The notes under the pieces were generated by a model. That model was given only the letters and a program-made list of their open reading frames with translations, was not told where the DNA came from and did not search any database. Positions 3,501 through 33,554 of a stretch of 37,902 bases of DNA are shown here, in pieces (within the stretch, counting starts at the first letter, position 1; the number at the start of each line of letters is the position of its first letter). Origin of the DNA: Acidobacteriota bacterium (GTDB lineage Bacteria > Acidobacteriota > Terriglobia > Acidiferrales > UBA7541); NCBI GenBank assembly GCA_003223295.1, contig QHYM01000114.1:1-37902 (forward strand). Direction: 5' to 3'. Both the position numbers and the translations under genes were made by a program.

Positions 3501-4547
3501 GCGCATGTTTGCGGATGGCACCACCCTCTCTATGGTCGTAGAGCCGGGCCACCAGAACCCTTCAAAATTGGCAAAGAAATAAGTCTTTCCGCCCAAAATG
3601 CTCTTTGGAATGATCGGACCGCCACCAGCGGCACCCATGCGGTTGTAGTGATAGCTAGGCAGTGGAGTGCCGGCCGCGTTGTTATCCCAGGTGTTAGCAT
3701 TGAAATTGTTATCGAAATAATATTCGTAAGCGGTACCGTGCCAGGCGTTCGTGCCGCGCTTCGTGACCACTTGCACTTGCGCGCCCGCCGAGCTATTGAA
3801 GTCTGCCGTCTGGTTCGCGGTATTCACCTTGAACTCTTCGACGCTATCGAGTGGCGTAGGCATCACGCCCGTGGGAGCGCCGCCGATGGAGTTCGCCACG
3901 ATGCCGCCCGTTGGGTCGCCCGCGAAGCTGGGCGTATAAACCTGCATGCTGCCGTCCATATCATTGGTGTTCTGGCCGCCATCCAGCAAGAATGTGCTTT
4001 GATCCACGACAGCGCCGGCCACGCTTCCGTCTGGAGAGACACCGGGCTGCAAGGTTACGAATGTGCTGGTGTCGCGTCCAATCGAAGGCATGGACTGCAA
4101 AAGGTCACCGGCGACGGTACTTCCCACTGTGGCGTTCATGCTCTGTAATTCAGCGCCGCTCGCGGTGACTTCCACAGTTTGACTCACCGAGCCGAGCTCC
4201 ATGCTCACGTTCAGCGTGAGTGCCGTCCCAACCGTCACTTCCTGCTTGGTAAACTTCGCCGCTCGGAATCCAGATTTACTTATGGTCAGGTTGTAAGTCC
4301 CAGGAACCACGTTGGCGAAGACGTACCTTCCCGTGTCGTTGGTAACCGCTGTTCGCTCCGTGTTAGTGGCGGTGTCAACTAGCGTTACGGTGGCACCGAC
4401 AACCGCCGCACCGGATTGATCTGTAACCGTTCCGGACACAGTCCCTGAGTTCGCCGCCTGACCGCTGGCAGCCGGTGAATACACCAAGAGCATTAAGCAG
4501 AGAAAACTACAGAGACAACACCAACCAAGCGCCACTCGCTTTGTCAT
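501..4547 (-). CDS. TonB-dependent receptor, Oar-like, with N-terminal carboxypeptidase-regulatory domain
   Basis: Outer-membrane receptor or transporter of about 1348 residues. Order: signal peptide (MTKRVALGWC... ending near SPAASGQA, about residue 29); a CarboxypepD_reg beta-sandwich (about 32-115, with GTVSGTVTDQSGAAVVGATV and TVGTALTLNVSMELG); a plug region (STFLLDGGQNTNDMDG, then SVEEFKVNTANQTADF); then a long beta-barrel rich in aromatic strands, ending in FGIRISF with the C-terminal Phe typical of BAM substrates. This ATG is chosen because AGGAGG lies seven bases upstream and a clear signal peptide starts there; an upstream in-frame ATG at 4691 would add 48 residues with no such signal. 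The substrate cannot be told. Such receptors are very numerous in Acidobacteriota and are often linked to polymer or peptide uptake (family knowledge). It is transcribed alone from the promoter at 4844-4872. Confidence 0.93.
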   Translation of the reverse strand: MTKRVALGWCCLCSFLCLMLLVYSPAASGQAANSGTVSGTVTDQSGAAVVGATVTLVDTATNTERTAVTNDTGRYVFANVVPGTYNLTISKSGFRAAKFTKQEVTVGTALTLNVSMELGSVSQTVEVTASGAELQSMNATVGSTVAGDLLQSMPSIGRDTSTFVTLQPGVSPDGSVAGAVVDQSTFLLDGGQNTNDMDGSMQVYTPSFAGDPTGGIVANSIGGAPTGVMPTPLDSVEEFKVNTANQTADFNSSAGAQVQVVTKRGTNAWHGTAYEYYFDNNFNANTWDNNAAGTPLPSYHYNRMGAAGGGPIIPKSILGGKTYFFANFEGFWWPGSTTIERVVPSANMRAGILTLDVCNAACQAPGGPAPVPTVFNLNTGTNCGPAGTAKCDPRSIGINSLVQQMWTTYMPLPNETSGGGCGGFAGSTYCDGVNEGGFRGNASSPYTSHFGVARLDHDFGAKWHFNASYRYYKLVRASTSQTDIGGFFAGDQLGTPALLSRRPQQPWYLVAGLTTNISSNTTNDFHFSYLRNFWSWQDKEGPPQFSQLGGALEPFGESGTAVLAPYNVNTQSVRTRFWDGQDRFFRDDVTMLKGNHLFTFGGAYQHNYNWHQRSDNGGGINYMPTYQLGDSVGGGLIDFSSTNPAGVDSTQWSRDVSAVLGIVTDSQVAYTRSGPTLTLNPPLTHAFDQSTIPYYNVYWSDSWRMKPSFTLTYGLGWTLEMPPVEKNGKQIELVDDSGQQLDVMAYLNARKAAALKGEVYNPVVGFALVGNTGGGQKYPYLPFYGSFSPRIAAAWNPNYDSGVLGKLMGRGKSVIRGGYSRVYGRLNGVDLVLVPLLGTGLIQPVQCGNNNMDGTCTVPAGSTALTPANAFRIGTDGNVAPIPLPSQTLPQPTFPGVNSVSAAAGEALDTHFRPNVVDSFDFTIQRQLSNKILLEVGYIGRRITHEYQPININAVPYMMTLGGQSFAQAYAGVEHSLGCDTSSYTTCINITTAPANITPQPFFETALSGTGYCTGFASCTEAVVTKQLSSFRRQRVWTLWSNLDKGGIGGGSNGTTVPGFNFPRSMLNSPLLTSAFGSNGQLSSGVGVNASIGHGNYNGAFVSLKLTNWHNVTLQQNFTYSKALGTGAFVQATSEYTPNDPFDLNNMYGVQNFDRKFVYNLYALIDDPYYKSQRGVVGRLLGGWSIAPVFAYGSGAPDYCFTNTNAQAFGAGDGRNFFDNEQCIFTKQPPYGSTLHEVSGGGEFNMFADPAAVFATARDPILGLDRGTGGVGQIRGFGYWNMDVRVTKNIKVYERVGFDFQFVTTNVFNHPVFYNGGLDLTAGVANFGLTGSQGNNPRQMQFGIRISF

Positions 4548-4754
4548 TCCACTACCTCCTGATTTCCACTCGCATCCGCGTTTCCACGTCCTGAAACGAA
4601 GATCATTAGTTGAGAGATCGAAGTAAAAGAGATTGCGAGATTCCCCCTGGAGACATTGGGCACTCGCAGTCTGGTCCTTGCACCCACTCAAGCAACTTCA
4701 CTACCAACCGACCTGCAAACACCAAAGGCAGTAAATTCTATGCTTTATCTGACG

Positions 4755-5004: not shown

Positions 5005-6717
5005 TCAGTTGGCTTGATAAACGGTTCGGCCCCCGACCACGGTGCGGAGCACGCGGACTTTGGTGTATTGCGATGGCGGGATTTTAGTCAGGTCGTCTGA
5101 GAGAATGATGAAGTCGGCGTATTCGCCCACCTTCAGTTCGCCCTTCTTCCCTTCCTCGAACTGCGCATAAGCGGAACCCGAGATGTAAGCCCGGATGCAA
5201 TCTTCGAGCGAAATTTTTTCCTGCGGCTCCCAGCCTTTCCTGGGCCCGCCCTCCGGCCGCTCGCGCGTCACACAAGCATACAAGCCGCGAAACGGGCTGA
5301 TAGGCTCGACGTTGTAGTCCGTCCCAAAGGCGAGGCGGACGCCATTCTTCAGCATGGTGTTCCACGCGTACGCGCCCTTGATGCGCTCACTGCCCACGCG
5401 ATCCTCGGCCCAGCGCATGTCCGTGGTTTGGTGCGAAGGCTGCATCGAAGCAATCACTTTGAGTTCCGCGAAGCGCTGAAAGTCCATTGGCGCAACCACC
5501 TGAGCGTGCTCGATGCGGTCGCGGCGGTCGCGTGGCCCGTTAGCTTTGGCCACTGCTTGGAAAACGTCCAGGCAAATGCGGTTGGCGCGATCGCCGATGG
5601 CGTGAAACGCCAGTTGGAATCCAGCCTTGTCGCGCTCGATGGCCATGGCGCGCAGTTTGTCTGGATCGTACGTGAAGATGCCCGTGGAGGAAGGATCATC
5701 GCTATAGGGTTCGAGCAGCGCCGCCGTGCGCGAGCCTAGAGCGCCGTCGGTGACGGCCTTCAGCGCACCGGTCTTCAACCACGGATCCCTATAGCCGCCC
5801 TGTGCGCGCCTATCCTGTAACTCATTGAGCGAAGCGTTGAAAGGCAGCCACTCCGTGATGCGCGCGGTGAGTTTGCCGTCTTCTTTCAGTTGCTGATAAA
5901 CCTGAAAATCTTCCCATGCCGAATTGTCCTGCACGGAAGTAACACCGTTGCGCGCGACATTCGCCAGCACGATTTCAATTCCCCGCCGCCGCTCTTCCGG
6001 CGAGGGATCGGGAATCCGCACCTTCACCAGCGCCATCGCCGCGGCTTCTTTCAACATTCCCGTTGGCTCGCCAAGCCCGTCGTGTTCAATCTCGCCGCCA
6101 GGAGGATTGGGCGTGGACTTGTCGATCTCCGCTTTCTTCAGCGCCAGCGAATTCGCCACCGCCACGTGGCCGGAAATATGCGTGAGGATTACCGGGTTTT
6201 TGGGAGCCACGGTATCGAGTTGCTGACGATTGGGAAACCTTTTGTCGGGCCAAAGCGTGTGATCCCATCCCCCGCCCGTGATCCATTCTCCTTCCTTGTG
6301 ATGCGCAACGGCTTCGGCAATCCGCTTTTGCATTTCTTCCGGCGACGCGACGCCCCTCAACTGAACGGCTAGCGCGTCGGCGCCAGCGCCGCCGAGATGC
6401 ACATGCGCGTCATTAAACCCAGGCAAAACGAAGTGGTCTTCCAGAGAAACAGTCTCCGCGCCCTGTTGGCTCCCGCCACAGTCGAGCAACACGTGGGCCA
6501 TCTTTCCGATGCATGTGATTTTTCCGTCGGCCACCGCCATGGCTTCGGCCCAAGGGCTCGCGGGATCATTCGTGTACATGCGTCCATGCGTGTAAAAAAT
6601 GGTTTGCCCAGGCCTTTCTTGGGCTCCCGAGTTCTGAAGAAGCGATGTGCTACAAAACGCCATCCCCAGCAGAAAACAAATAAACGCGCGGCGCACGCCT
6701 AGCGCTTTGTTTCTCAT
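5005..6717 (-). CDS. Secreted or lipoprotein-like metal-dependent amidohydrolase (amidohydrolase family 3, YtcJ-like)
   Basis: A 570-residue hydrolase. Residues 1-32 are a signal peptide with a Cys22 near the hydrophobic core (FLLGMAFCSTS), so export is likely. The TIM-barrel metal site is visible as FNDAHVHLGG (His105, His107). Further conserved blocks include HAIGDRANR, PSHQTTDMRW and AFGTDYNVEPISP, the last carrying the late catalytic Asp. The C-terminal strand (KVGEYADFIILSDD) is the usual composite beta-domain closure. The start overlaps the M20 peptidase stop as ATGA with GGAG just upstream, so translation is probably coupled. The family cleaves C-N bonds in varied substrates; the actual substrate cannot be predicted. 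Pairing with a peptidase fits breakdown of modified peptides, an inference. Confidence 0.9.
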   Translation of the reverse strand: MRNKALGVRRAFICFLLGMAFCSTSLLQNSGAQERPGQTIFYTHGRMYTNDPASPWAEAMAVADGKITCIGKMAHVLLDCGGSQQGAETVSLEDHFVLPGFNDAHVHLGGAGADALAVQLRGVASPEEMQKRIAEAVAHHKEGEWITGGGWDHTLWPDKRFPNRQQLDTVAPKNPVILTHISGHVAVANSLALKKAEIDKSTPNPPGGEIEHDGLGEPTGMLKEAAAMALVKVRIPDPSPEERRRGIEIVLANVARNGVTSVQDNSAWEDFQVYQQLKEDGKLTARITEWLPFNASLNELQDRRAQGGYRDPWLKTGALKAVTDGALGSRTAALLEPYSDDPSSTGIFTYDPDKLRAMAIERDKAGFQLAFHAIGDRANRICLDVFQAVAKANGPRDRRDRIEHAQVVAPMDFQRFAELKVIASMQPSHQTTDMRWAEDRVGSERIKGAYAWNTMLKNGVRLAFGTDYNVEPISPFRGLYACVTRERPEGGPRKGWEPQEKISLEDCIRAYISGSAYAQFEEGKKGELKVGEYADFIILSDDLTKIPPSQYTKVRVLRTVVGGRTVYQAN

Positions 6718-7994
6718 CGAGCTTTCTCCTCCGCGACACCGGAGATTCCAAGAATGGTCAATAACGCCCGTTTCAAACCTACTTCCCTGCCCACGGCGTC
6801 GTACCACTCTTGCAGCGAATGCGCTCCGCCGCCAGTTCCGCCCGCGCCGATGGAAATCGCGTCGATTCCGAGGGACAGAGGGATGTTCGCATCCGTGGAA
6901 GAACGCTCCATGCGGGACTGGTTCCCGATAAACTCATCGGCGGCGCGAAGCGCAGCCAGCAGCGGTGAATCCTTCGAGAGCTCTCCACCTGGCCGACTCC
7001 CGAGCAGCTCTACTTTCCATTCGAGACTCCCCTTCGAACGGTCGCGCGGAGGGTCCATCTCGTCGCGTACGCCCGCGGCAATCGATTCGCGAAGCGCGGA
7101 TTCCAGGCGCGCCAGTTCCTGTTCGTTTTCCGAACGGATGTCCACTTTAATGCGCGCCTCGTGCGGTACGGAATTGACCGATGTTCCGCCTTCGATCTGG
7201 CCGATGTTAAACGTCGTGCGTGGGCCCGCCGGTATTTTCGTGTTGATAAAGCGAACCGAACCGCGGATCAGCGCGTTGATCGGATTGGGCATGCCAAAAT
7301 CCGACCAACTGTGCCCACCGGGGCCCATTATCGTCGCCTCCAGGCGTCGTGAGGCCAGCGCTCTGGTCGTGACATGGTCCGTGCCGGACCCATCGAGCAC
7401 CACAACGGCTTTTAGCTTCGGCCGGTAGCTCTCGACTAATTCGCGCATACCCCGGAGATTGCCTTCTCCCTCTTCCCCGACATTCCCCACAAACCAAATC
7501 GTACGTTCGGGTTTCACGTGCGCAAATTGCAGGGCTCGCGCAATCGCCACAAGCGCCGCAATGCCCGTGCCATTATCGGAAATCCCAGGCGCCATCATGC
7601 GGTTGCCGTCGCGATGAACCTTCACGTTCGTGCCGGCAGGAAAAACGGTGTCCAGGTGCGCGGAAAGCACAACCATCTCACTTTCATTCTCGCCGCGGAA
7701 TTCTCCGATAACGTTTCCAATCTTGTCCGTGTGCACGGTGAGGCCACTCTCCCCCAGCAGTTCGCCCACGGCAGCGGCGCGCGATTCTTCTTGAAAAGGA
7801 GGTGCGGGAATCTCCGTCAACCGCGCTTGCGTATCAATCACCCAGGAAAGATTGTGGTTCAGCCAATCGAGAGCGGCGCGAACCCGCGCGTTCTCCGCAA
7901 GCCGGGAACCCGCGGCCAGGCGCTGAGCAGAAGTCGGAGCGGCGGAGCGGACCGGCATAACGAGAAGAATAGCGCAAACGACGGCGCGTTTCAT
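6714..7994 (-). CDS. Exported M20-family zinc peptidase
   Basis: A 426-residue di-zinc exopeptidase with a signal peptide (MKRAVVCAILLVMPVRSAA). Metal and catalytic motifs are present: SAHLDTVFP (His113, Asp115), APGISDNGTG (bridging Asp140), GNVGEEGEGN (Glu-Glu pair) and a late GGAHS with a His ligand. A lid or dimerisation domain (about 205-325) carries GPGGHSW. This fits the M20 di- and tripeptidase/carboxypeptidase group. The start at 7994 is preferred over an in-frame ATG at 8045, which lies inside the upstream gene and precedes no signal peptide; the ribosome site is weak. It lies 26 bases after the LeuA-like gene and overlaps the amidohydrolase by ATGA. Confidence 0.9.
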   Translation of the reverse strand: MKRAVVCAILLVMPVRSAAPTSAQRLAAGSRLAENARVRAALDWLNHNLSWVIDTQARLTEIPAPPFQEESRAAAVGELLGESGLTVHTDKIGNVIGEFRGENESEMVVLSAHLDTVFPAGTNVKVHRDGNRMMAPGISDNGTGIAALVAIARALQFAHVKPERTIWFVGNVGEEGEGNLRGMRELVESYRPKLKAVVVLDGSGTDHVTTRALASRRLEATIMGPGGHSWSDFGMPNPINALIRGSVRFINTKIPAGPRTTFNIGQIEGGTSVNSVPHEARIKVDIRSENEQELARLESALRESIAAGVRDEMDPPRDRSKGSLEWKVELLGSRPGGELSKDSPLLAALRAADEFIGNQSRMERSSTDANIPLSLGIDAISIGAGGTGGGAHSLQEWYDAVGREVGLKRALLTILGISGVAEEKAR

Positions 7995-8020
7995 CGTCGC
8001 TCTGTTCGGCCCTTTTCGTT

Positions 8021-9256
8021 TCAACGGGGTGCGGGCTCCGTGCACAGCGCGTGAATCTCGGCATCGGTGAGCACGCGCTGAGACTGCTTGGCGGCATCCA
8101 GTATCCGGCTTACGACGGCATCATCGGCGGGAATCTGGTGCCGCGCGAGCCAAAAAAGAACGTTCGATTTTCCGCTCATTGGACCGATCTCAATGATCTG
8201 CTCGAGACCAAACAAGTGCGCCGGAACACCGCTGTACACATCGTCGGCCAGGCGCTGATCGCCCTTCTGAATCGCTTTGACGATCGCGGCCGCGTGCACT
8301 CCCGTCGCCGTTCGAAACGCGTCGTGCCCGATCACTGGATAGTTCAGCGGAATCGAGATCTTCGTGGCTCGCGCAACTTTCTCGCAATAGTGTCTGAGAT
8401 TTGAGAGGTCGCGGTCGATTAAGCCCATCAGGCGTAGATTTACGAGCATCAGTTCCATCGGCGTGTTGCCGACGCGTTCCCCGAGCGCATTGGCCGCGCC
8501 GTGGACTTGATGCGCGCCCCCGGCGACGGCGGCCAATGAATTGGCGATGGCCAAGCCGCGGTCATTGTGGCCGTGCCAATCCACGCGGATTTTCTCCCCG
8601 GAAGGTTTCACAACTTCATCAACAACAAATTTCACCAGGTTAAAGGCGCCATTCGGCGTGGCATGGCCCACGGTGTCACACAGAACCACCGCGCGCGCCC
8701 CGTTGCGAATCGCCGTGGAATACAAACGCTTCACCGTCTCCGGGTCCGTTCGAATGGTGTCTTCCGTGACGTACATCGACGGCAGGCCATGCTGCACCGC
8801 GAACTTCACCGCGTTTTCCGTGGTGCGCTGGAGATGATCGACGGTCCACTCTTCCACCAATCGCCGGATCGGGCTGGAACCGAGAAACGTTGCAGCCTCA
8901 ATCGCGATGCCAACGCGCTCCGAAATCTCCACGATGGGGCGAATATCATTTTCGTGCGTTCGCGCGGCACAATTCGGCTTGATTTTCATCCGGCTCGTGA
9001 CGATTTCACTCGCCAGTGCCTCCGTATGCGCCGCCGCGCGCGGTCCGGCGCCTGGCAGCCCGATGTTGACGGAATCAATGCCGAGCGATTCCATCAAGTG
9101 CAGGATTTCAATCTTTTCTTCAATGGTGGGGTCGCAAACGGAGGGATTCTGCAGCCCGTCGCGCAGTGTCTCATCGTCCAGGAGCACGCGCGTCCCGGGA
9201 GGAATCTGCGGCGGAGTCGCCGTATTCCAGTCGTAGATCCATTCGTTTTGCGGCAT
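8021..9256 (-). CDS. DRE-TIM acyltransferase, 2-isopropylmalate/homocitrate/citramalate synthase-like
   Basis: A 411-residue TIM-barrel enzyme of the LeuA/NifV/CimA group. Key motifs: DDETLRDGLQ (Arg32-Asp33), WHGHNDRGLAIANS (the HxH metal ligands), ANALGERVGNTPMEL and NYPVIGHDAFRTATGVH. These enzymes condense acetyl-CoA with a 2-oxoacid. The C-terminal LeuA regulatory domain is missing: only about 70 residues follow the catalytic lid, as in NifV or short CimA/LeuA paralogues. The start is placed at ATG 9256 because longer versions run into the gene upstream, whose stop is at 9310; the ribosome site here is poor. No leuBCD genes are nearby, so a standard leucine-synthesis role is not supported by context. 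Its oxoacid substrate is open. Confidence 0.85.
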   Translation of the reverse strand: MPQNEWIYDWNTATPPQIPPGTRVLLDDETLRDGLQNPSVCDPTIEEKIEILHLMESLGIDSVNIGLPGAGPRAAAHTEALASEIVTSRMKIKPNCAARTHENDIRPIVEISERVGIAIEAATFLGSSPIRRLVEEWTVDHLQRTTENAVKFAVQHGLPSMYVTEDTIRTDPETVKRLYSTAIRNGARAVVLCDTVGHATPNGAFNLVKFVVDEVVKPSGEKIRVDWHGHNDRGLAIANSLAAVAGGAHQVHGAANALGERVGNTPMELMLVNLRLMGLIDRDLSNLRHYCEKVARATKISIPLNYPVIGHDAFRTATGVHAAAIVKAIQKGDQRLADDVYSGVPAHLFGLEQIIEIGPMSGKSNVLFWLARHQIPADDAVVSRILDAAKQSQRVLTDAEIHALCTEPAPR

Positions 9257-11202: not shown

Positions 11203-14200
11203 TTACTTTGCTGCCCTCGTGGTCGCGGTTGCCAGCGTCACCTGCTTCACGTTGTCGTCGGGGATGCGGTCGATCAGCAACACAAACGGATCGACGCCAG
11301 CTTGATACGGCAGTTCGGCCACGGTGAACGTATGAGTGGACTTGCTTCCGCTCAGATGGACGCGTTCGCGGTAAAGCGTCTTGCCATATTTCTTGTCTTT
11401 TTCCGGCTTGGCAAACGCTCCGATCTCAATCCAGTCGTTTACGGGCACTTCCGTTTCATTGCCCTTCGCGTCGGCCTTAAACTTGCGCGTCTCGATGTCC
11501 ATGATTACGTCGTACTTGCCGTCCGTGCGCTTTTGGGCTGTGGCTTCAAGCGTCCGATTCGAGAAAATGGTGATGTCCTCGAATAGATCCTTGATCAAAT
11601 ACTGCAGTTCGGCAGGCGTTTGCTCGCGGAGCGCGTCCACGAGAGCATAGGAAGTTGGATATGGCGCCTGCGCATAGGCGTATTGCTGAACGAGCTTATT
11701 TAATGCCCGGTTGACCGCCTCTTCCCCGATCATCTCCTTCAGATAGTAGAGAACGAGGCTTCCTTTGCGGTAGTGTACATAGCCCTGCTCCGCTTCCACG
11801 GTGAGCAACGGGCGCTCTTTCTGACGCTCCTTCCCGCGGCTCGAAAGATAGCGGTCCATTTCGTAACGCAAGAACTTGCGCATCAGGTCGCGGCCGTATT
11901 CGTGTTCCATGACCATCAGCGCCGAATACTGCGCCATAGTTTCTGAGAGCAGTGTCGCGCCTTGCATGTTCGCGCCAATCACTTGATGGGCCCACCACTG
12001 ATGCGCCATTTCATGGGCCACGACGTAAAACACCATGTCAATGTCGTCCGCGTGATTCAAGTTGGCAATGAACCCGATGGCTTCTGAATAAGGCATCGTG
12101 CCGGGAAAGGCCTGCGCGAACGTGGCCACGCGTGGAAATTCGATAATGCGCGCTTCCTTGTGGTAGTAAGGCCCAAAATTGTGAGTGAAGTAATCGAGCG
12201 ACTTCTTCATCGAGTTCATCATCCGTGGCACATTCCACGGATGTTCCTTCAGGTAGTAGACCTCGAGGCGGATGCCGTTCCACTGCTCGCGCGCCACCTC
12301 GTAGTCTGCGGAAATGAACGAATAGAACGCAAGCGAGGGATGATCCAGCTTGTATTGAAAGTATCGGCGATCCCCGTCCCGCCATTCGCGAATCAGTGAG
12401 CCGGGCGCGACAGCAGTCTGGCCAGCGGACGTGCTGATGATGGTTTCAACATTGATCCAGTCGGCCCGGGCACCAAGGTACGTCTCCATGCAATCCGCGG
12501 CGCAATTTCGTTCCAACGGGGGCATCAGTTCCTGCTCGCCCAGGCCGTATTTCTTCCGGTCGTTCGGATCGGCAATTTCATTTTGCGCCGAGTACCCAAT
12601 CAGCGGTGCGACGGTATTATTGAAGAAGGTGCCGTTCTGGACCACCGTCGTATCGCTCACTTCGTTTTCAAAGCCCCGCGTATGCGTTTTGACCGTGGCA
12701 TGAACCGTTCGGCTTTCTCCCGCGGGCAGCGGCGGCGAAAACCGGTAAACCTGGTAGTTCAGCCGCTGGTCGTCCTTCGCGAGGGTGGCACCGGGAATAC
12801 GAATTTCCGAATCGTAGAGCCGGTTTAGCGTGAAATGGATTTCATCCAGCGGATGCGAGTAGGGATTCTGAACGACCGCATCCGCATTCAGAACCATCTG
12901 CCTCTGTTCAGGATAGATTTCGATGTTGTACTTCACGTCTCGGAGCCGGGGCATTTCCTTCTTGTCGAACTGTTTGTAAGCCTTTTCATAATCTGCCTGG
13001 ATGCGCAGCATGTCTTTCGGCCCTTGGACCTTGTTCACGATCTTTGTGTTGTAATAAGCCCACGCGCCGACCCCCGCAAATGCGACGCAACCAACCACTG
13101 CCAGTGCCGGCCACACTCCCGCAAAACGTAACCGCGCAATGCCCACCCGATCTTTCCACTGGTTCGACTTCCCTCGCGGCCAAAAAAGGACCGTAAGCAC
13201 GTAGAGGACTGCGCAGCACAAAAGCCAATAGAGCGAAAACCAGCTCCACGCCATCCGGAAAGGCGCGTCCGCGTAAAAGTCCGAGTAGATGACCCTGGGT
13301 CGATTCGCGAACTTTGGCAGATTGCTAGCGACGTTTAGCGGAGTCCAGGCAAACAGGTTCGCCAGCAGGAACACCACATAAACGAAGTACCCGACGTACT
13401 TGTTTGGGGAAAGCACGTGAAACAAAAACGCGAGAACGGCCAACATGACGAACAGCGAAAGATCACGGATCAGGAGTTCTTTCAGGTACAGACCGAATTG
13501 GAAGCGGTAAAAGTGGTTCGCGGCTTGCACAATAATCCCGCTCACCAACACGACGAGCTGAATCAGCAGCACAACGCTGACGAGGGCCGTCAACCGCGAA
13601 GCATAGGAAACCCACTCGGGCGCTGGCAAGGAATCGGTGATTTCGTCCATGCGAACGTCACGATCTTTCCACACCAGGATCCCGGCGTAATACGTGATGA
13701 TCGCGACGATGAACATGTAGAGCGTCCCGGCGATAATCTGCAATATCCATATGGTGACAGGGAAGCTGCTGTTCCCGTAGCCTTCGGAGGCGTTCAAGGC
13801 CACTGCTGGGATGCAGTTCAGCAGCGCCGCCAGGAGAACGACGATAAACACGGTGCTCTTGACCACGCCGAAGAAATGAATACGCAGGGAGGCGAAGTAC
13901 TTCTTCCACGGTGCCTCATGAAAGGAAATCGACGGCAGCGCGACGGCAGCGCCTCGCGTCTCCGCACCATCCTGGGACATCGCCCTCACTTTCTTCCTGC
14001 GCTCGGCAAAGCTGAATCTCACATAAGCAAATGCAAAGATGGCGATGGCAACCGCCAACCAGAGAAGCCGGTTCCAGAGCAGATAACCGCCATATCCCGC
14101 TGCCAGCGAGTTCTTTTCCGCCACGGTCCAATACCGCGTGACGTACGCAAACGTGCGGATTCCAAACGGGTCCAGGAGGGCTCCAAGCTTTTGGCGCTCC

Positions 14201-14796
14201 ACATTTTGCAATAGGTAATCCGAGACGCCGTAACCCGCCAGTAGCACCAGCGAAGCCACAAATGAAACAATCTCGTTTCGCCCCAAAACGGCCACTGCAA
14301 ACAAAATCGCCGCAATGATGAACGCGTTTGGCAGCGCAAACAGCAGAATCCCATGCACGTGCGATCTCCAGACGACCGATCCCCAACGCTCCGGCTCAAC
14401 CCACGGCATGTATTTCGCAAGGAGGAACCCGAGCGACACTCCCAGCATCGGGATCATGGAAACGAATGCTGCGCCGAGAAAGCGCCCCATCAAAAAGTCC
14501 CATCGCTTCAACGGCGTCGAAAACACAATCTGGTAGGTATTGAACGTAAAATCCCGGGCTGCGGCGAAATTGATGAAGGCCGCCGCCATGATCATCGTGA
14601 AAAGACCAATAAACGAATAATAGTTCTGGACGTTGTACGGCGAATTTCGAAAAGTATTGGAAAGCGCTTCACCAAGCGTGATGTTATCGGTGCTCGCAGC
14701 GCCGAAAACCAATGCGCCGACGATCAGTAGGAAAATCCACAACATCCATGAACGCAGCCAATAGCGAATTTCGAAGGCCAGGATGTGCTTGAGCAT
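11203..14796 (-). CDS. ABC-2 type permease fused to an M1-family metallopeptidase domain
   Basis: A 1197-residue two-part protein. Roughly residues 1-600 are a membrane section with some 12 hydrophobic segments starting at RSWMLWIFLLIVGALVF, including two ABC-2 permease-like units. After a last membrane helix (VWPALAVVGCVAFAGVGAWA) the remainder is an M1-like gluzincin: HEMAHQWWAHQ (His928, Glu929, His932) and LLSETMA (Glu952). Compared with classical M1 enzymes, the third ligand is one residue further away (19 between) and no GAMEN motif is visible (906-914 reads AIGFIANLN). The C-terminal part (about 1080-1170) is beta-rich. The M1 domain probably faces outwards. The ATPase partner lies nine bases upstream. 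Such fusions occur in Bacteroidota and Acidobacteriota, and the transported substrate is unknown. Confidence 0.9.
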   Translation of the reverse strand: MLKHILAFEIRYWLRSWMLWIFLLIVGALVFGAASTDNITLGEALSNTFRNSPYNVQNYYSFIGLFTMIMAAAFINFAAARDFTFNTYQIVFSTPLKRWDFLMGRFLGAAFVSMIPMLGVSLGFLLAKYMPWVEPERWGSVVWRSHVHGILLFALPNAFIIAAILFAVAVLGRNEIVSFVASLVLLAGYGVSDYLLQNVERQKLGALLDPFGIRTFAYVTRYWTVAEKNSLAAGYGGYLLWNRLLWLAVAIAIFAFAYVRFSFAERRKKVRAMSQDGAETRGAAVALPSISFHEAPWKKYFASLRIHFFGVVKSTVFIVVLLAALLNCIPAVALNASEGYGNSSFPVTIWILQIIAGTLYMFIVAIITYYAGILVWKDRDVRMDEITDSLPAPEWVSYASRLTALVSVVLLIQLVVLVSGIIVQAANHFYRFQFGLYLKELLIRDLSLFVMLAVLAFLFHVLSPNKYVGYFVYVVFLLANLFAWTPLNVASNLPKFANRPRVIYSDFYADAPFRMAWSWFSLYWLLCCAVLYVLTVLFWPRGKSNQWKDRVGIARLRFAGVWPALAVVGCVAFAGVGAWAYYNTKIVNKVQGPKDMLRIQADYEKAYKQFDKKEMPRLRDVKYNIEIYPEQRQMVLNADAVVQNPYSHPLDEIHFTLNRLYDSEIRIPGATLAKDDQRLNYQVYRFSPPLPAGESRTVHATVKTHTRGFENEVSDTTVVQNGTFFNNTVAPLIGYSAQNEIADPNDRKKYGLGEQELMPPLERNCAADCMETYLGARADWINVETIISTSAGQTAVAPGSLIREWRDGDRRYFQYKLDHPSLAFYSFISADYEVAREQWNGIRLEVYYLKEHPWNVPRMMNSMKKSLDYFTHNFGPYYHKEARIIEFPRVATFAQAFPGTMPYSEAIGFIANLNHADDIDMVFYVVAHEMAHQWWAHQVIGANMQGATLLSETMAQYSALMVMEHEYGRDLMRKFLRYEMDRYLSSRGKERQKERPLLTVEAEQGYVHYRKGSLVLYYLKEMIGEEAVNRALNKLVQQYAYAQAPYPTSYALVDALREQTPAELQYLIKDLFEDITIFSNRTLEATAQKRTDGKYDVIMDIETRKFKADAKGNETEVPVNDWIEIGAFAKPEKDKKYGKTLYRERVHLSGSKSTHTFTVAELPYQAGVDPFVLLIDRIPDDNVKQVTLATATTRAAK

Positions 14797-20339: not shown

Positions 20340-22058
<1,719 letters not shown>

Positions 22059-27840: not shown

Positions 27841-29517
27841 GTGTCCGCTCCCGTCCTGAAAACTGCCGCAAATCGCAAATCTCCCGACTTCGAAAAGAAC
27901 ACGCGCCGCATCATCGATCTTCTCACCGAGATCAAGAATGAAGAGGAACAGATTCGCCAGGGCGGGGGCGCCAAAGCAATTGAGTCGCAGCACAAAAAGG
28001 GCCGCCTGACTGCGCGCGAGCGCATCGCCAAGCTGATCGATCCCGGAACGCAGTTTTTCGAATTGGGAATTTACGCAGCGTTCGAGATGTATGAGGAGTG
28101 GGGCGGCGCGCCTTGCGCGGGCACCGTCACGGGCCTGGCGAAAGTTTGCGGCCGGACATTCATGATTATCGCCAACGATGCGACGGTGAAAGCCGGCGCG
28201 TTCTTTCCGATGACCGCGAAAAAAGTGATTCGCGCGCAAAATATCGCCATCGAGAATCGCGTTCCCACAATTTATCTCGTCGATTCCGCCGGAGTATTTC
28301 TTCCGCTGCAAGAAGATGTTTTTCCCGATACCGACGACTTTGGCCGGGTGTTTCGCAACAACGCGGTGATGAGCGCCAAGGGCATTCCGCAGATTACTGC
28401 CATCATGGGCATGTGCGTGGCGGGGGGCGCGTATCTTCCGGTGATGTGCGACCACATCCTGATGACCGAAGGCTCGGGACTGTTTCTTGCCGGGCCGGCG
28501 CTGGTGCAAGCCGCCATCGGGCAAAAATCCTCCGCGGAGGAACTGGGTGGCGCGAAAATGCACGCACAAATCAGCGGCACGGTGGATTTTCGAGAGCCGA
28601 ACGATGACGCCTGCATCGCGCGCATTCGCGCGCTGGCGGACAAGATGGGCGCGCCTAATCCCTCTCCCTTCAGCCATGTAAAGCCGCAGGACCCGCTTTA
28701 TTCCCCCGAGGAAATCTACGGCATCTTTTCCAGTGATCCTGCCAGGCAGTACGACATGCGCGAGATTATTGGACGTATCGTGGACGCTGGCGAGTTTGAG
28801 GAATACCGCGCCGAATACGGCGAGACGCTGCTTTGCGGCTATGCGCGCATCGGCGGATGGGCCGTCGGCATCGTCGCCAATCAGAAAAAGCACGTGCAAA
28901 CGCTGGCGCGCGGCTCGGACCAGAAGCGTATCGAGTTCGGCGGCGTGATTTATACGGAATCAGCAGAAAAAGCCGCGCGCTTCATTCTCGACTGCAATCA
29001 GAACCGCATCCCGCTCGTTTTTCTTCATGACGTCAACGGATTCATGGTCGGCAAAGACGCCGAATGGAGCGGCATCATCCGCGCTGGCGCGAAGATGGTC
29101 AACGCCGTTGCGAACAGCGTGGTCCCCAAGATTTCCGTGATTTGCGGGGGCAGCTTTGGGGCCGGTCATTACGCCATGTGTGGCAAAGCCTATGATCCAC
29201 GATTTATTTTTGCGTGGCCCACGGCGCGCTACGCGGTGATGAGCGGCGATTCCGCAGCCGGAACGCTCGTGGAGATCAAGCTGAAACAACTCGAGCGTGA
29301 GGGCAAGAAGGTCGACGAAAAGCAGAAGAAAGAGCTCTACGAATCCGTGCGCGCCACCTACGAGCATCAGACGGATCCGCGCTATGCCGCTGCACGCCTT
29401 TGGGTGGATGCCATTATCGATCCGGCTCATACGCGCGAGGCGCTCGTCTGGGCGCTGGAAGCGGCGTCTCTCAACCCGGAGATTCCTGAGTTCAAGACCG
29501 GTGTGCTGCAAACTTGA
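27841..29517 (+). CDS. Acyl-CoA carboxylase carboxyltransferase (beta) subunit, methylcrotonyl-CoA carboxylase-like
   Basis: A 558-residue biotin-dependent carboxyltransferase with two crotonase-fold halves. The N half has HKKGRLTARERIAKLIDPG and the oxyanion region MGMCVAGGAYLPVMCD; the C half has FLHDVNGFMVGKDAEWSGI, GAKMVNAVANSVVPK and GGSFGAGHYAMCGKAYDPRF. The MCGKAYDPRFIFAWP pattern is closer to methylcrotonyl- and geranyl-CoA carboxylases than to propionyl-CoA carboxylase. DVNGF replaces the more usual N-I-T/A-GF. It starts with GTG behind GAGAGG. The biotin carboxylase/biotin carrier (alpha) subunit is not in the window. Downstream hydratase- and lyase-like genes suggest a leucine-type pathway. 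Confidence 0.88.
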   Translation: MSAPVLKTAANRKSPDFEKNTRRIIDLLTEIKNEEEQIRQGGGAKAIESQHKKGRLTARERIAKLIDPGTQFFELGIYAAFEMYEEWGGAPCAGTVTGLAKVCGRTFMIIANDATVKAGAFFPMTAKKVIRAQNIAIENRVPTIYLVDSAGVFLPLQEDVFPDTDDFGRVFRNNAVMSAKGIPQITAIMGMCVAGGAYLPVMCDHILMTEGSGLFLAGPALVQAAIGQKSSAEELGGAKMHAQISGTVDFREPNDDACIARIRALADKMGAPNPSPFSHVKPQDPLYSPEEIYGIFSSDPARQYDMREIIGRIVDAGEFEEYRAEYGETLLCGYARIGGWAVGIVANQKKHVQTLARGSDQKRIEFGGVIYTESAEKAARFILDCNQNRIPLVFLHDVNGFMVGKDAEWSGIIRAGAKMVNAVANSVVPKISVICGGSFGAGHYAMCGKAYDPRFIFAWPTARYAVMSGDSAAGTLVEIKLKQLEREGKKVDEKQKKELYESVRATYEHQTDPRYAAARLWVDAIIDPAHTREALVWALEAASLNPEIPEFKTGVLQT

Positions 29518-29531
29518 GCAAGCTCGAAACC

Positions 29532-29864
29532 ATGTTCCGCATCTTCCTGGCCAACTTCGTTGTCCAAGTTCTGCCACTCCTGATGATCGCCGCGGCGATC
29601 ATTCTCGTGGTCAAGGCGCGAAAAGGTGGTCCCGGCAGTTCTCTCAAGCACTACTTTGGCCTTTCGCTGGCGGCGCTTCCTGCTGGCATCATTGCGTATA
29701 TCGTTGCGGGCATTGCGGCAGCCAGGATCCGACGTGAAGGGCATTTCTACAGCGTTCCTTTTGCCGGCTACACTGTTGATAACGGCCCGATCGTTATCAG
29801 CGTCGCGCTGTGGATCGCTTTCGTCTTTGCTGCGCTGGCGTTCCTTTTGCGTCCTCGCGAGTAA
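29532..29864 (+). CDS. Small membrane protein of unknown function
   Basis: About 110 residues with three hydrophobic segments: VVQVLPLLMIAAAIILVV, AALPAGIIAYIVAGIAA and VISVALWIAFVFAALAFLL, with basic loops. I recognise no family. ATG 29532 is chosen; a TTG at 29514, overlapping the carboxylase stop as TTGA, would add six residues. Neither has a good ribosome site. It lies inside the acyl-CoA operon, 14 bases after the carboxylase and 20 before the lyase. Confidence 0.7.
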   Translation: MFRIFLANFVVQVLPLLMIAAAIILVVKARKGGPGSSLKHYFGLSLAALPAGIIAYIVAGIAAARIRREGHFYSVPFAGYTVDNGPIVISVALWIAFVFAALAFLLRPRE

Positions 29865-29884
29865 AATTGCATAGAAGGGACCGA

Positions 29885-30781
29885 GTGGAAGAGACAATAA
29901 AAATCATCGAATGCCCGAGGGACGCGTGGCAAGGGCTGCCGGACATTATCCCCACTGAATACAAAGCGGCGTACCTCAAAGAATTGGTGCTCGCCGGATT
30001 CAAGCATATCGATGCCGTGAGCTTCGTCTCGCCGAAGCACGTCAAGCAAATGGCGGACAGCGAAGACGTGATGGCGAGATTTGGCGCTTCCCTTCCACGG
30101 GACGGTGAGCCGCCAGAGATCATCGGAATTGCGGTCAACGAGAAAGGATTGGAGCGGGCGCTGGCCACGCCGGGAGTAACGACCATCGGCTATCCCTATT
30201 CCATCTCTGCGTATTTTCGCCGCGCCAACGCCAACATGTCGCGCGACGAAGCGCGCACGCTGGTCGAGAAACTGAAGAAGGAAACGGGTGCGGCAAATCG
30301 CGGACTGGTAGTCTATATTTCGATGGCCTTTGGAAATCCCTACGACGAGCCTTGGGGACCGGAGATCGTTGCCGATACTCTGGAGTGGCTCAAGGACATA
30401 CGCGTTCGCACGGTCTCGTTGGCTGACACGGTGGGTACGGCCACGCCGGAACTCGTCGGCGCCCTCTATCGCCAAGTGAGGGATCATGTCGCGGGTATCG
30501 AGCTGGGCGTTCATCTGCACAGCCGGCCGGAAAGTGTGAAGGAAAAAACCCTTGCCGCGTATGAAGCGGGATGCCGCCGCTTTGACAGCGCGCTCACCGG
30601 GCTTGGCGGCTGCCCGTTTGCCGGTGATAATCTCGTCGGCAATATTGCCACCGAGGATGTGCTTGCGGCGCTGCGCCAAGCCGGCGCCGACCCGGGCATT
30701 GACCCGGCGCGGCTGTCAAAAGCGCTCGAAATGACCAATGAAATTCGCGCAAAATATGCTCATGCTCCGCTCGTGAATTGA
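29885..30781 (+). CDS. HMG-CoA lyase-like DRE-TIM enzyme
   Basis: A 298-residue TIM-barrel, the usual size for HMG-CoA lyase, which splits HMG-CoA into acetoacetate and acetyl-CoA. Conserved: Arg12-Asp13, SFVSPKHVKQMADSE, the metal ligands His210 and His212 (VHLH), and the lyase signature GLGGCPFAG with catalytic Cys243 and Asn253. Departures: PRDAWQ replaces RDGLQ; Asp43 stands where the human enzyme has Glu72; SRPES follows the HLH in place of DTYGQ; and the Cys-to-Asn gap is one residue longer. Start GTG 29885 follows AAGGGA and matches family length. The substrate may be HMG-CoA or a related 3-hydroxy-3-methyl acyl-CoA. Confidence 0.82.
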   Translation: MEETIKIIECPRDAWQGLPDIIPTEYKAAYLKELVLAGFKHIDAVSFVSPKHVKQMADSEDVMARFGASLPRDGEPPEIIGIAVNEKGLERALATPGVTTIGYPYSISAYFRRANANMSRDEARTLVEKLKKETGAANRGLVVYISMAFGNPYDEPWGPEIVADTLEWLKDIRVRTVSLADTVGTATPELVGALYRQVRDHVAGIELGVHLHSRPESVKEKTLAAYEAGCRRFDSALTGLGGCPFAGDNLVGNIATEDVLAALRQAGADPGIDPARLSKALEMTNEIRAKYAHAPLVN

Positions 30782-30796
30782 GAGGAGATTCGAATC

Positions 30797-31582
30797 ATGT
30801 ATTCCACGCTTATTCTTGACATCTCCGGCGCCGTCGCCACGATCACCCTGAACCGGCCGGACAAACGCAACGCGATGTCCGCTACCATGATTGCCGAGCT
30901 GCAAACCGCGCTCGATGAAATTGAGAAGAGTCATGTACGTGTGGGCATTCTAACGGGAGCGGGCAAGGCGTTTTGTTCCGGGATGGACCTGGAAATGCTC
31001 GCAGCGATCGCGCAGCAAACCCCGGCAGAGAATCAGGAAGATTCCCGGCGCATGGCAAAGATGTTCCGGCGCATCTGGAGCTTTCCGCGGCCGCTGATCG
31101 CCGCAGTGAATGGCGCAGCTCTCGCGGGCGGCTGCGGAATCGCGACGTTGTGCGATTTCACGCTCGCGGTTGCCGAAGCGAAGTTCGGGTATACGGAAGT
31201 GAAGATCGGATTTCTGCCGGCCCTTGTTTCGGTGTTCCTGATTCGCCAAATCGGAGAAAAACGAACCAGGGATCTTCTGCTTACCGGGCGAATTCTTGAA
31301 GCGGTTGAAGCCAAGGAAATGGGCTTGGTGAACGAAATCGTCCCGGCAGAAAACCTCATTGCGCGTTCGAAAGAGCTTGCCGAGCTTCTGATTGCGGCGA
31401 GCCCCGCAAGCCTGTCGCGCGCGAAACGCTTAATGACTTCCGCAGCCGCCGCAAGCGTGGACGCCGATTTGGAGCGCGCCATCCTGGAAAACGCGCGAAT
31501 CCGCTGCACCTCCGATTTCAAGGAGGGCCTAGCCTCCTTTCTCGAGAAACGAAAACCCGTCTGGCGAGGCAAACCGGAATAG
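30797..31582 (+). CDS. Enoyl-CoA hydratase/isomerase family protein
   Basis: A 261-residue crotonase-fold protein: TLNRPDKRNAMS, GKAFCSGMDLEML (first oxyanion region), AAVNGAALAGGCGIATLCD and FGYTEVKIGFLPA. Compared with rat enoyl-CoA hydratase, the Glu144 position is Gly114 here and Glu164 is retained as Glu134, 20 residues later as expected. One-Glu enzymes of this fold are often isomerases; methylglutaconyl-CoA hydratase keeps both Glu. From context a hydratase of the leucine pathway would be expected, so this residue change matters. GAGGAG lies upstream, and the gap to the lyase gene is 15 bases. Confidence 0.88.
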   Translation: MYSTLILDISGAVATITLNRPDKRNAMSATMIAELQTALDEIEKSHVRVGILTGAGKAFCSGMDLEMLAAIAQQTPAENQEDSRRMAKMFRRIWSFPRPLIAAVNGAALAGGCGIATLCDFTLAVAEAKFGYTEVKIGFLPALVSVFLIRQIGEKRTRDLLLTGRILEAVEAKEMGLVNEIVPAENLIARSKELAELLIAASPASLSRAKRLMTSAAAASVDADLERAILENARIRCTSDFKEGLASFLEKRKPVWRGKPE

Positions 31583-31596
31583 ACCGAGACAGGCGA

Positions 31597-32034
31597 ATGC
31601 TCGAATATCACGATGCCAAAGTGCGCGTCCGCTATGCAGAGACAGACCAGATGGGTGTGGTATATCACGCCAACTTTCTTGTGTGGTTCGAGGTGGGCCG
31701 CGTGGAGTTGATGCGCGCGCTGGGCGTGGAATACAAAAGAATGGAAAAAGAGGATGACTGCCACATTGTGGTGGCCGATGTGCACTGCCGCTATCACCAC
31801 TCCGCGCGCTACGACGAGGAGCTGCTCATTCGCACGCGCATTGCGGAGTCGAAAAACCGCGTCGTGGTTTTCTCGTACGAAGTGATTCGCGATGCGGATG
31901 GAAAAGTCCTGGCCAATGGCGAGACCACGCATGTGATTTGCGGAAGCAACGGGCGGCCGAAACTGTTGCCTGACAAATATCGCAAAATCATGGTCGCGGC
32001 GGGCGTGCCTGAGCCTCACGGGGGCCGCACATGA
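31597..32034 (+). CDS. YbgC/FadM-type hotdog acyl-CoA thioesterase
   Basis: A 145-residue single hotdog domain. The family motif RYAETDQMGVVYHANFLVWF carries the catalytic Asp17 and the central-helix start. It would hydrolyse acyl-CoAs and could release product or protect CoA pools in this operon. It lies 14 bases after the hydratase-like gene and overlaps hutH as ATGA, so the two are translationally coupled. The last 15 residues (GVPEPHGGRT) are variable. Confidence 0.9.
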   Translation: MLEYHDAKVRVRYAETDQMGVVYHANFLVWFEVGRVELMRALGVEYKRMEKEDDCHIVVADVHCRYHHSARYDEELLIRTRIAESKNRVVVFSYEVIRDADGKVLANGETTHVICGSNGRPKLLPDKYRKIMVAAGVPEPHGGRT

Positions 32035-33554
32035 GCGTGCTGCTGACGGGAAACGATCTCACGTTCGCGCAGCTCTACGCCGTGGCGTTACGCGGCGAAA
32101 GCGCAGGACTGGCACTCAGTGCTGTAGAGCGGATGAACGCGTCGCGCGCGGTAGTGGAGCGCCTCGTGGCTTCCGGCGCAACCGCGTACGGGATAAACAC
32201 CGGCTTCGGCAAGCTCGCCACCGTGCGTATTTCTCCCGAGCAAGTGCGGCAACTGCAAGTGAATTTGGTGCGCTCTCACGCGAGTGGCGTGGGCACGCCG
32301 CTGAGCGAAGCGGAAACTCGCGCGTTGATGGTGTTGCGCGCGAACGCGCTGGCAAAAGGATTGAGCGGCATCCGGCCACGGGTCGTGGAAACGCTATGCC
32401 AAATGTTGAACGCCAAGGTACATCCCGTGATTCCGTCGCAGGGATCAGTGGGCGCTTCCGGCGACCTTGCGCCGTTGGCGCATTTGGCGCACGTAATCAT
32501 CGGCGAGGGACAGGCCACGTTTCGCAGCGAATCGTTGACTGGTGGCGAAGCGCTGAAGCGCGCGGGGATCGTTCCGATCGAGTTGGAAGCCAAAGAAGGG
32601 CTCTCACTTCTGAACGGCACGCAAGGAATGCTCGCGCTGCTCAGCCTTGCGCTGCGCGAAACCGATATTCTGGTTGACACAGCAGACGTGGCCGCCTCCC
32701 TCTCGCTCGATGCGCTGCGCGGCAGCCCTGGGGCATTCGATGCGCGCATCATGCACGCTCGCGCTTACGCAGGCGCGGCTACGACCGCAAAGAACCTCGC
32801 GCACTTGAATGATGGCAGCCAGATTCGTGAGTCGCACCGCGCAGCAGAAAAAGATCCGCGCGTGCAAGACGCCTACAGTTTGCGGTGCACGCCACAGGTG
32901 CACGGGGCGGTGCGCGATGCCCTCGCACAAGCACGAGAGATAGCCGCGGTGGAATTGAACAGCGCTACCGACAATCCCCTCGTCTTTGTACGCGATGCAA
33001 CAAGCGGCGATATCGTCAGCGGGGGGAATTTTCATGGGCAGCCGCTGGCCATGGCGGCGGATCAGGTGGCTATTGCGATTGCTGCGCTCGGCGGCATCGT
33101 TGAGCGTCGCGTTGAGCACATGACGAATCCCCTCACCAGCATGCTTCCGGCGTTCCTGACGCCCGAGCCCGGATTGAATTCCGGCTTCATGATCGCGCAA
33201 GTGACCGCTGCGGCGCTGACGAGCGAAAACAAGGCGCTGGCGACGCCACATTCTGTGGACTCAATTTCCACTTCCGGCAATCAAGAAGACTACGTATCCA
33301 TGGGAATGAGCGGAGCGCGGCGGCTGGACGGCATGCTGAGGAATCTGCGCAACACGATTGCGATTGAGCTGCTTTGTGCGTGCCAGGGGATTGACCTGCT
33401 GGCACCGTTGAAGACCGGGAAGCTGGCTACCAAAGCCTATGAAATAGTGCGCGCGCAGTCCCGCATGTTGTCGGTGGATCGCCCCCTCGCTGCGGACATT
33501 GAAGCCGTCTCGCGTTTGGTTGCCGACGGGGCAGTTGCCGCGATTCTGCACTGA
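32031..33554 (+). CDS. hutH: Histidine ammonia-lyase
   Basis: Deaminates histidine to urocanate and ammonia. The 507-residue protein aligns without shift to the Pseudomonas enzyme: Tyr53 (TAYGINTGFG), His83 (RSHASGVG) and the self-forming MIO triad Ala142-Ser143-Gly144 in GSVGASGDLAPLAHLA. The SH context at 83 favours histidine over tyrosine or phenylalanine as substrate. Other blocks: SATDNPLV, GGNFHGQP and DSISTSGNQED. No hutU, hutI or hutG is nearby, and instead the gene ends the acyl-CoA operon, overlapping the thioesterase start/stop. The stop is followed by a short convergent gap to the glycosylase gene. Confidence 0.95.
   Translation: MSVLLTGNDLTFAQLYAVALRGESAGLALSAVERMNASRAVVERLVASGATAYGINTGFGKLATVRISPEQVRQLQVNLVRSHASGVGTPLSEAETRALMVLRANALAKGLSGIRPRVVETLCQMLNAKVHPVIPSQGSVGASGDLAPLAHLAHVIIGEGQATFRSESLTGGEALKRAGIVPIELEAKEGLSLLNGTQGMLALLSLALRETDILVDTADVAASLSLDALRGSPGAFDARIMHARAYAGAATTAKNLAHLNDGSQIRESHRAAEKDPRVQDAYSLRCTPQVHGAVRDALAQAREIAAVELNSATDNPLVFVRDATSGDIVSGGNFHGQPLAMAADQVAIAIAALGGIVERRVEHMTNPLTSMLPAFLTPEPGLNSGFMIAQVTAAALTSENKALATPHSVDSISTSGNQEDYVSMGMSGARRLDGMLRNLRNTIAIELLCACQGIDLLAPLKTGKLATKAYEIVRAQSRMLSVDRPLAADIEAVSRLVADGAVAAILH

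Follow-up and report, generated by a model that had tools for sequence, protein, structure and literature searches.

Acidobacteriota are abundant soil bacteria whose use of amino acids has been little studied. Does the locus described here, six plus-strand open reading frames (ORFs) at positions 27841-33554 of a 37,902-nucleotide stretch of DNA (the window, by which we mean the whole stretch), encode part of leucine breakdown or some other acyl-CoA pathway? The window forms contig C313 of a draft genome from an acidobacterium (6.03 Mb, 481 contigs, 95.2% complete). Among the matches listed, its closest relatives are metagenome-assembled genomes (MAGs) that carry the labels Acidobacteria gp2 and Candidatus Acidoferrales/Acidiferrum. 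A preliminary description of the six ORFs had noted an echo of lower leucine breakdown together with consistently non-canonical catalytic residues, and had suggested a variant branched-acyl-CoA route. We consider it probable that the locus is a conserved acidobacterial operon for lower leucine catabolism with hutH, the gene for histidine ammonia-lyase (HAL), attached. Protein families, residues and gene order support the leucine echo, and we found nothing pointing to a different route. The module appears to be mostly textbook, its deviations being a divergent 3-hydroxy-3-methylglutaryl-CoA (HMG-CoA) lyase and, as far as our searches of the operon and genome reach, the lack of both a fused alpha subunit of methylcrotonyl-CoA carboxylase (MCC) and a dehydrogenase of the isovaleryl-CoA dehydrogenase (IVD) type.

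A compact gene run for a probable lower leucine pathway

Pfam and NCBIfam place the products of the six ORFs, in order, in the carboxyl transferase family, in no family, and in the HMGL-like, enoyl-CoA hydratase, YbgC/FadM thioesterase and histidine ammonia-lyase families. The successive gaps of -4, 20, 15, 14 and -4 bases reproduce the coordinates and the tight spacing first described, and the genes may be co-transcribed. Neither an acyl-CoA dehydrogenase gene nor a biotin carboxylase gene lies inside the cluster, again as first described.

In the scheme that we propose, the carboxyltransferase would convert 3-methylcrotonyl-CoA to 3-methylglutaconyl-CoA with the help of biotin carboxylase and carrier subunits whose genes lie elsewhere, the hydratase would convert 3-methylglutaconyl-CoA to HMG-CoA, and the lyase would cleave HMG-CoA to give acetyl-CoA and acetoacetate. 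A possible role of the thioesterase, as a guess, is to free CoA from stalled intermediates, and HAL would start histidine breakdown together with the products of hutU, hutI and ftcD from another contig.

Gene order is conserved across soil Acidobacteriota

To follow the gene order across the phylum, we used two sets of loci. The first comprises the best 80 of at least 582 confirmed candidates (67 from Acidobacteriota and 13 from Verrucomicrobia, by record title); because these loci were chosen by lyase similarity and come mostly from MAGs, they are not an unbiased census. The second comprises 29 loci from 28 genomes of the phylum (G163, which also has the lyase, was left out). The order carboxylase beta subunit, lyase, hydratase, thioesterase, HAL recurs across many soil Acidobacteriota, which answers the question of conservation left by the preliminary description. 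Among the 67 acidobacterial loci, a carboxylase gene lies upstream of the lyase gene in 62 (absent in one, contig end in four), a hydratase gene is present in 64 (absent in one, contig end in two), a thioesterase gene in the run in 56 (absent in seven, contig end in four) and a HAL gene in 53 (absent in seven, contig end in seven). The corresponding counts in the 29-locus set are 24, 26, 21 and 7.

The second ORF, encoding a small membrane-like protein, had been counted as an operon member. The ORF exists, but it was found in only 1 of 297 phylum genomes, namely its own, and the spacing of 7 bases between the carboxylase and lyase genes in the close relatives L135, L137 and L138 leaves no room for it; it is probably not part of the system.

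The same-strand order of the acidobacterial operon was found in none of the 13 Verrucomicrobia loci. The carboxylase gene adjoins the lyase gene on the opposite strand in three of them, and 12 of the 13 Verrucomicrobia genomes with the lyase also hold the carboxylase, at 57-58% identity. We also note that in L171, L173, L183 and L193, all from Verrucomicrobia, the lyase-family gene directly follows GrpE-like and DnaJ-like ORFs and precedes an RNA methyltransferase-like ORF (assigned by eye from the first residues).

In L048 the operon is preceded by an acyl-CoA dehydrogenase gene and followed by the phenylalanine/tyrosine-degradation genes for 4-hydroxyphenylpyruvate dioxygenase, phenylalanine hydroxylase, homogentisate dioxygenase and fumarylacetoacetase. 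L050 shares these flanking gene clusters and L040 has them rearranged. A gene for BshB1 (bacillithiol deacetylase) lies upstream of the carboxylase gene at L035:5217-6026, and an ORF of L037 clusters with it. Among PMC titles and abstracts we found none describing the operon or its enzymes, although full texts were not covered and this is no proof of its being unpublished.

The lyase is divergent and retains its catalytic core

Eight critical residues of human HMG-CoA lyase are listed in a section of PMC6941031. The window lyase keeps seven of them, the Mg ligands Asp42, His233, His235 and Asn275 and the catalytic residues Arg41, Tyr167 and Cys266, and has Asp in place of the catalytic Glu72. 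Asp occupies this site in 30 of 30 lyases from the window and the 29-locus set, and in 79 of the 80 loci of the first set, the site being not covered in the other. Non-catalytic differences occur as well, among them those at human R165, C170, C174 and D236. Bacteroidetes presumably carry the same Asp-type lyase.

The AlphaFold model of the lyase (mean pLDDT 91.8) retrieved HMG-CoA lyases in the first eight rows of a fold search, with Z scores of 34.4-36.5, and the next family followed at 29.6. The human (2cw6), Brucella (1ydn) and Pseudomonas (2ftp) enzymes share the TIM-barrel (Z 35-36.5), the Mg ligands and Arg41, Tyr167 and Cys266 with the window lyase, but differ from it at Glu72 and at the four non-catalytic positions, and are 28-32% identical to it. 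Taken at the level of sequence and model, the lyase is truly divergent with a retained catalytic core, and is predicted to cleave HMG-CoA.

The genomic company of the lyase is consistent with this prediction. The 25 lyases with an adjoining carboxylase (window, L034-L056, L060) all keep Arg41, Asp42, His233, His235, Cys266 and Asn275. Of the five lyases without one, those of L057 (near a contig end) and L058 keep these six core residues; one or more of the six are gone from those of L059, L061 and L062. Such a pattern, in which the core is kept beside a carboxylase and partly lost without it, fits a need for the lyase chemistry together with the carboxylase. The genes in L059, L061 and L062 lie beside a thioesterase gene, and their open frames are intact despite the lost catalytic or metal-binding residues; they may be decaying copies or reused proteins.

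The hydratase substitution is usual for this step

The window hydratase has Gly at the position of the first catalytic Glu and retains the second; it passes no NCBIfam equivalog cut-off. Across 64 loci the first site is Gly in 63 and Ala in one, and the second Glu is kept in all 64. For comparison we collected seven plasmid regions that contain a similar carboxylase gene, five of which have IVD, hydratase and lyase genes beside it. Four of these five are annotated (Sinorhizobium meliloti pSymA CP090105, L291; Azospirillum, L293; Mycetohabitans, L294; Paracoccus, L296) and one is unannotated and was found by tblastn (L292). Of the two remaining regions, that of Sphingobium has no lyase or crotonase annotated and that of Bernardetia has no pathway gene annotated beside its carboxylase.

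The hydratases of all five proteobacterial leucine operons show the same Gly/Glu pattern, at 30-38% identity to the window hydratase. A leucine-pathway cluster of Pseudomonas contains a hydratase whose nearest structure, as given in a portion of PMC4619459, is 3I47, at 46% identity, and 3I47 has Gly at the same site. The change is thus usual for this step, and we rejected the idea that the hydratase is a damaged enzyme. The four annotated operons resemble the window operon in combining an MCC-beta-like carboxyltransferase, a Gly/Glu crotonase-type hydratase and an HMG-CoA lyase homologue in one run; the window run differs in having no IVD or MCC alpha gene, in the addition of thioesterase and hutH genes, and in its lyase, which is 31-34% identical to theirs and has Asp72.

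These comparisons alter the picture of the active sites given in the preliminary description. Its statement that those of both lyase and hydratase are altered stands for the Asp in place of Glu72, but the hydratase change is shared with the proteobacterial leucine operons; with a HAL that looks canonical as well, the claim of consistently non-canonical residues comes down to one conservative catalytic change in the lyase.

The carboxyltransferase and its candidate biotin partners

When the PDB was searched with phmmer, the carboxyltransferase scored 506.5 bits with an MCC beta subunit (3u9r), 487.5 with AccD1 (4q0g) and 483.7 with human MCC (8j4z), versus 376.5 for geranyl-CoA carboxylase (5ikl) and at most 294 for propionyl-CoA carboxylase (PCC) beta subunits other than 9tps. 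AccD1 belongs to mycobacterial AccD1-AccA1, which part of PMC4347857 presents as a proven MCC for leucine; there the alpha gene adjoins the beta gene, whereas here no alpha gene lies beside it.

Several observations weigh against a leucine operon. The top PDB row for the carboxyltransferase is 9tps (510.8 bits), labelled PCC beta. A 2011 phylogeny, in the portion of PMC3199775 that deals with it, places the carboxylases of three Acidobacteria in a general acyl-CoA group and not with MCC. No fused MCC alpha subunit (biotin carboxylase plus carrier) was found in the operon or the window genome, and no IVD-type dehydrogenase was found in the operon or among five of the seven window-genome matches, the five inspected (two short fragments were left out). 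The lyase reaches 182.3 bits with the NCBIfam HMG-CoA lyase model (NF004283), below the cut-off of 246, and leucine breakdown may therefore escape automatic annotation in these genomes. Finally, in 18 Acidobacteriota genomes a carboxylase 61-66% identical to this one occurs in the absence of this lyase: a lyase-like match lies below 1e-30 in three, is marginal (~1e-4 to 1e-5) in three and is missing in 12. The carboxylase and hydratase genes are adjacent in 12 of the 18, and three of the other six have the carboxylase on contigs of ~5 kb or less.

These 18 genomes, the classification in PMC3199775 and the change at Glu72 would favour a general or terpenoid acyl-CoA module, in which another enoyl-CoA (of geranyl, propionyl or unspecified type) is the main substrate of the carboxyltransferase, hydratase and lyase, and leucine is a minor one. 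We regard such a module as unlikely, given that, apart from the 9tps row, the MCC beta subunits outscore the geranyl-CoA and propionyl-CoA enzymes, that HMG-CoA lyases are the nearest fold matches of the lyase, and that amino-acid degradation genes flank the operon in L048.

The absence of an alpha subunit predicts that one biotin carboxylase and carrier serve several carboxyltransferases. The window genome has three biotin carboxylases: a stand-alone enzyme encoded on C380, near a second carboxyltransferase gene and accompanied by a separate gene for the carrier; AccC together with AccB on C465; and one within a pyruvate carboxylase-like frame of 1162 aa on C75. Among the 29 genomes compared, the carboxylase-bearing genomes G130, G241, G273 and G281 have one biotin carboxylase each, and G249 has two, one of them inside a 1228-aa frame. 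In G241, which consists of a single contig, one strong short match to a biotin carrier adjoins the biotin carboxylase; its further carrier matches are two domains in a 553-aa frame and three weak matches. These counts make it likely that the biotin carboxylase is shared there.

A further possibility, which we offer tentatively, is that the leucine set of Acidobacteriota, and in part of Verrucomicrobiota, was assembled separately. It would then combine a borrowed, shared biotin carboxylase and carrier (some genomes apparently having only AccB/AccC), a short-chain-type dehydrogenase in the role of IVD, the Asp-type lyase and a dedicated CoA-releasing thioesterase, co-expressed with histidine deamination.

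Dehydrogenase and source of HMG-CoA

An orthologue (at least 55% identity) of the acyl-CoA dehydrogenase encoded upstream of the operon in L048 occurs in 26 of the 29 genomes. It accompanies the carboxylase in 25 of 25 genomes and occurs in one of the four without a carboxylase (G131, in which no close carboxylase turned up), but not in G061, G112 and G202. Its catalytic Glu lies at the short-chain position and not at the IVD position, as it does in the five inspected dehydrogenase matches of the window genome and the four of G241; the helix-G catalytic Glu motif of IVD is present in five proteobacterial IVDs. The orthologue may act on isovaleryl-CoA. At G000:C10:3103-5255 (L242) in the window genome, its gene is followed by one for the MeaB GTPase of methylmalonyl-CoA mutase, which likewise hints at breakdown of branched-chain compounds or propionate.

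HMG-CoA synthase was found in none of the 29 genomes (controls positive in 4 of 14), so leucine is the likely source of HMG-CoA. The OAD beta membrane subunit was likewise found in none (controls positive in 2 of 14). Both absences argue against running the module backwards, to make isovaleryl-CoA from HMG-CoA for iso-branched fatty acids in the manner of Myxococcus, or assembling a sodium-pump decarboxylase from the carboxyltransferase and the membrane ORF. A cluster without biotin carboxylase, a membrane ORF following the carboxyltransferase and a hydratase family able to work in both directions would suit such routes; the predicted HMG-CoA-cleaving lyase in the operon points instead to breakdown, and we consider them very unlikely. 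Reversed synthesis was rejected on the missing HMG-CoA synthase (AibA/AibB were not searched for), and the sodium pump on the missing OAD beta subunit and the lack of conservation of the membrane ORF.

The thioesterase and an ordinary histidine ammonia-lyase in an unusual place

The thioesterase and ammonia-lyase genes are appended to the run as the preliminary description had it. The thioesterase does not reach the cut-off of the Tol-Pal-specific model (90.9 versus 141.35 bits), and its N-terminal active-site region aligns with four PDB chains. HAL keeps the Ala-Ser-Gly of the MIO group in 53 of 53 loci and its other aligned active-site residues wherever they are covered. It shares family model and aligned active-site residues with HutH of P. 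putida (1b8f, 1gkm) and differs in gene place: among the 16 HutH genomes, hutH forms part of the leucine operon in eight, and is found beside hutU in seven and elsewhere in one (G139).

The 4-base overlap of the thioesterase and HAL genes, and a match to the flexirubin tyrosine lyase model, which falls below the cut-off (332.1 of 700 bits), could be read as signs of an aromatic or tyrosine ammonia-lyase serving, with the thioesterase, a specialised product. HAL nevertheless passes the HutH cut-off and is the only HutH match detected in its genome, the 16 of 29 genomes in which HutH reaches its cut-off are also those in which HutU does, and 52 of 53 loci retain the aligned, presumed selectivity His (not covered in the other). 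We set the aromatic or pigment lyase aside on the co-occurrence of HutH and HutU, and think it very unlikely, the least probable of the alternatives. In the window genome, hutU, hutI and ftcD lie together on contig C261. Co-occurrence, gene positions and these partners on C261 thus make HAL the ordinary first enzyme of the hut pathway, encoded in an unusual place. The hutU gene of the window genome is split over two frames (G000:C261:42214-43789; L258:4209-5829), with matches to positions 94-545 and 3-77, and may reflect an assembly error or a pseudogene.

Other features of the window

The isobutyryl-CoA mutase mentioned in the preliminary description as lying nearby is presumably the mutase ORF in Table 1, the Tyr/Arg pair of which suggests the methylmalonyl-CoA mutase type. 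A mutase gene lies upstream on the same strand in 24 of the 67 acidobacterial loci, and in 22 of the 43 in which the sequence before the lyase gene extends for 6.5 kb or more; its link to the operon is positional only.

Table 1. Coordinates of the operon and of other ORFs in the window.
Feature	Position	Strand	Details
Acyl-CoA carboxylase carboxyltransferase (beta), MCC-beta-like	27841..29517	+	558 aa, GTG start, Pfam PF01039 472 bits
Small membrane-like ORF	29514..29864	+	116 aa, TTG start, no Pfam/NCBIfam match
Divergent HMG-CoA lyase homologue	29885..30781	+	298 aa, GTG start behind agaaggg, PF00682 85 bits
Enoyl-CoA hydratase family, proposed 3-methylglutaconyl-CoA hydratase (LiuC-like)	30797..31582	+	261 aa, PF00378 207 bits
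YbgC/FadM family acyl-CoA thioesterase	31597..32034	+	145 aa, TIGR00051 97.8 bits (cut-off 68.7)
Histidine ammonia-lyase HutH	32031..33554	+	507 aa, TIGR01225 651.7 bits (cut-off 539.15)
Acyl-CoA mutase large subunit, without B12-binding part	20340..22058	+	572 aa, TIGR00641 793.1 bits
Four long ORFs	501-4691, 5005-6807, 6714-8045, 11203-14796	-	no NCBIfam match at 1e-20

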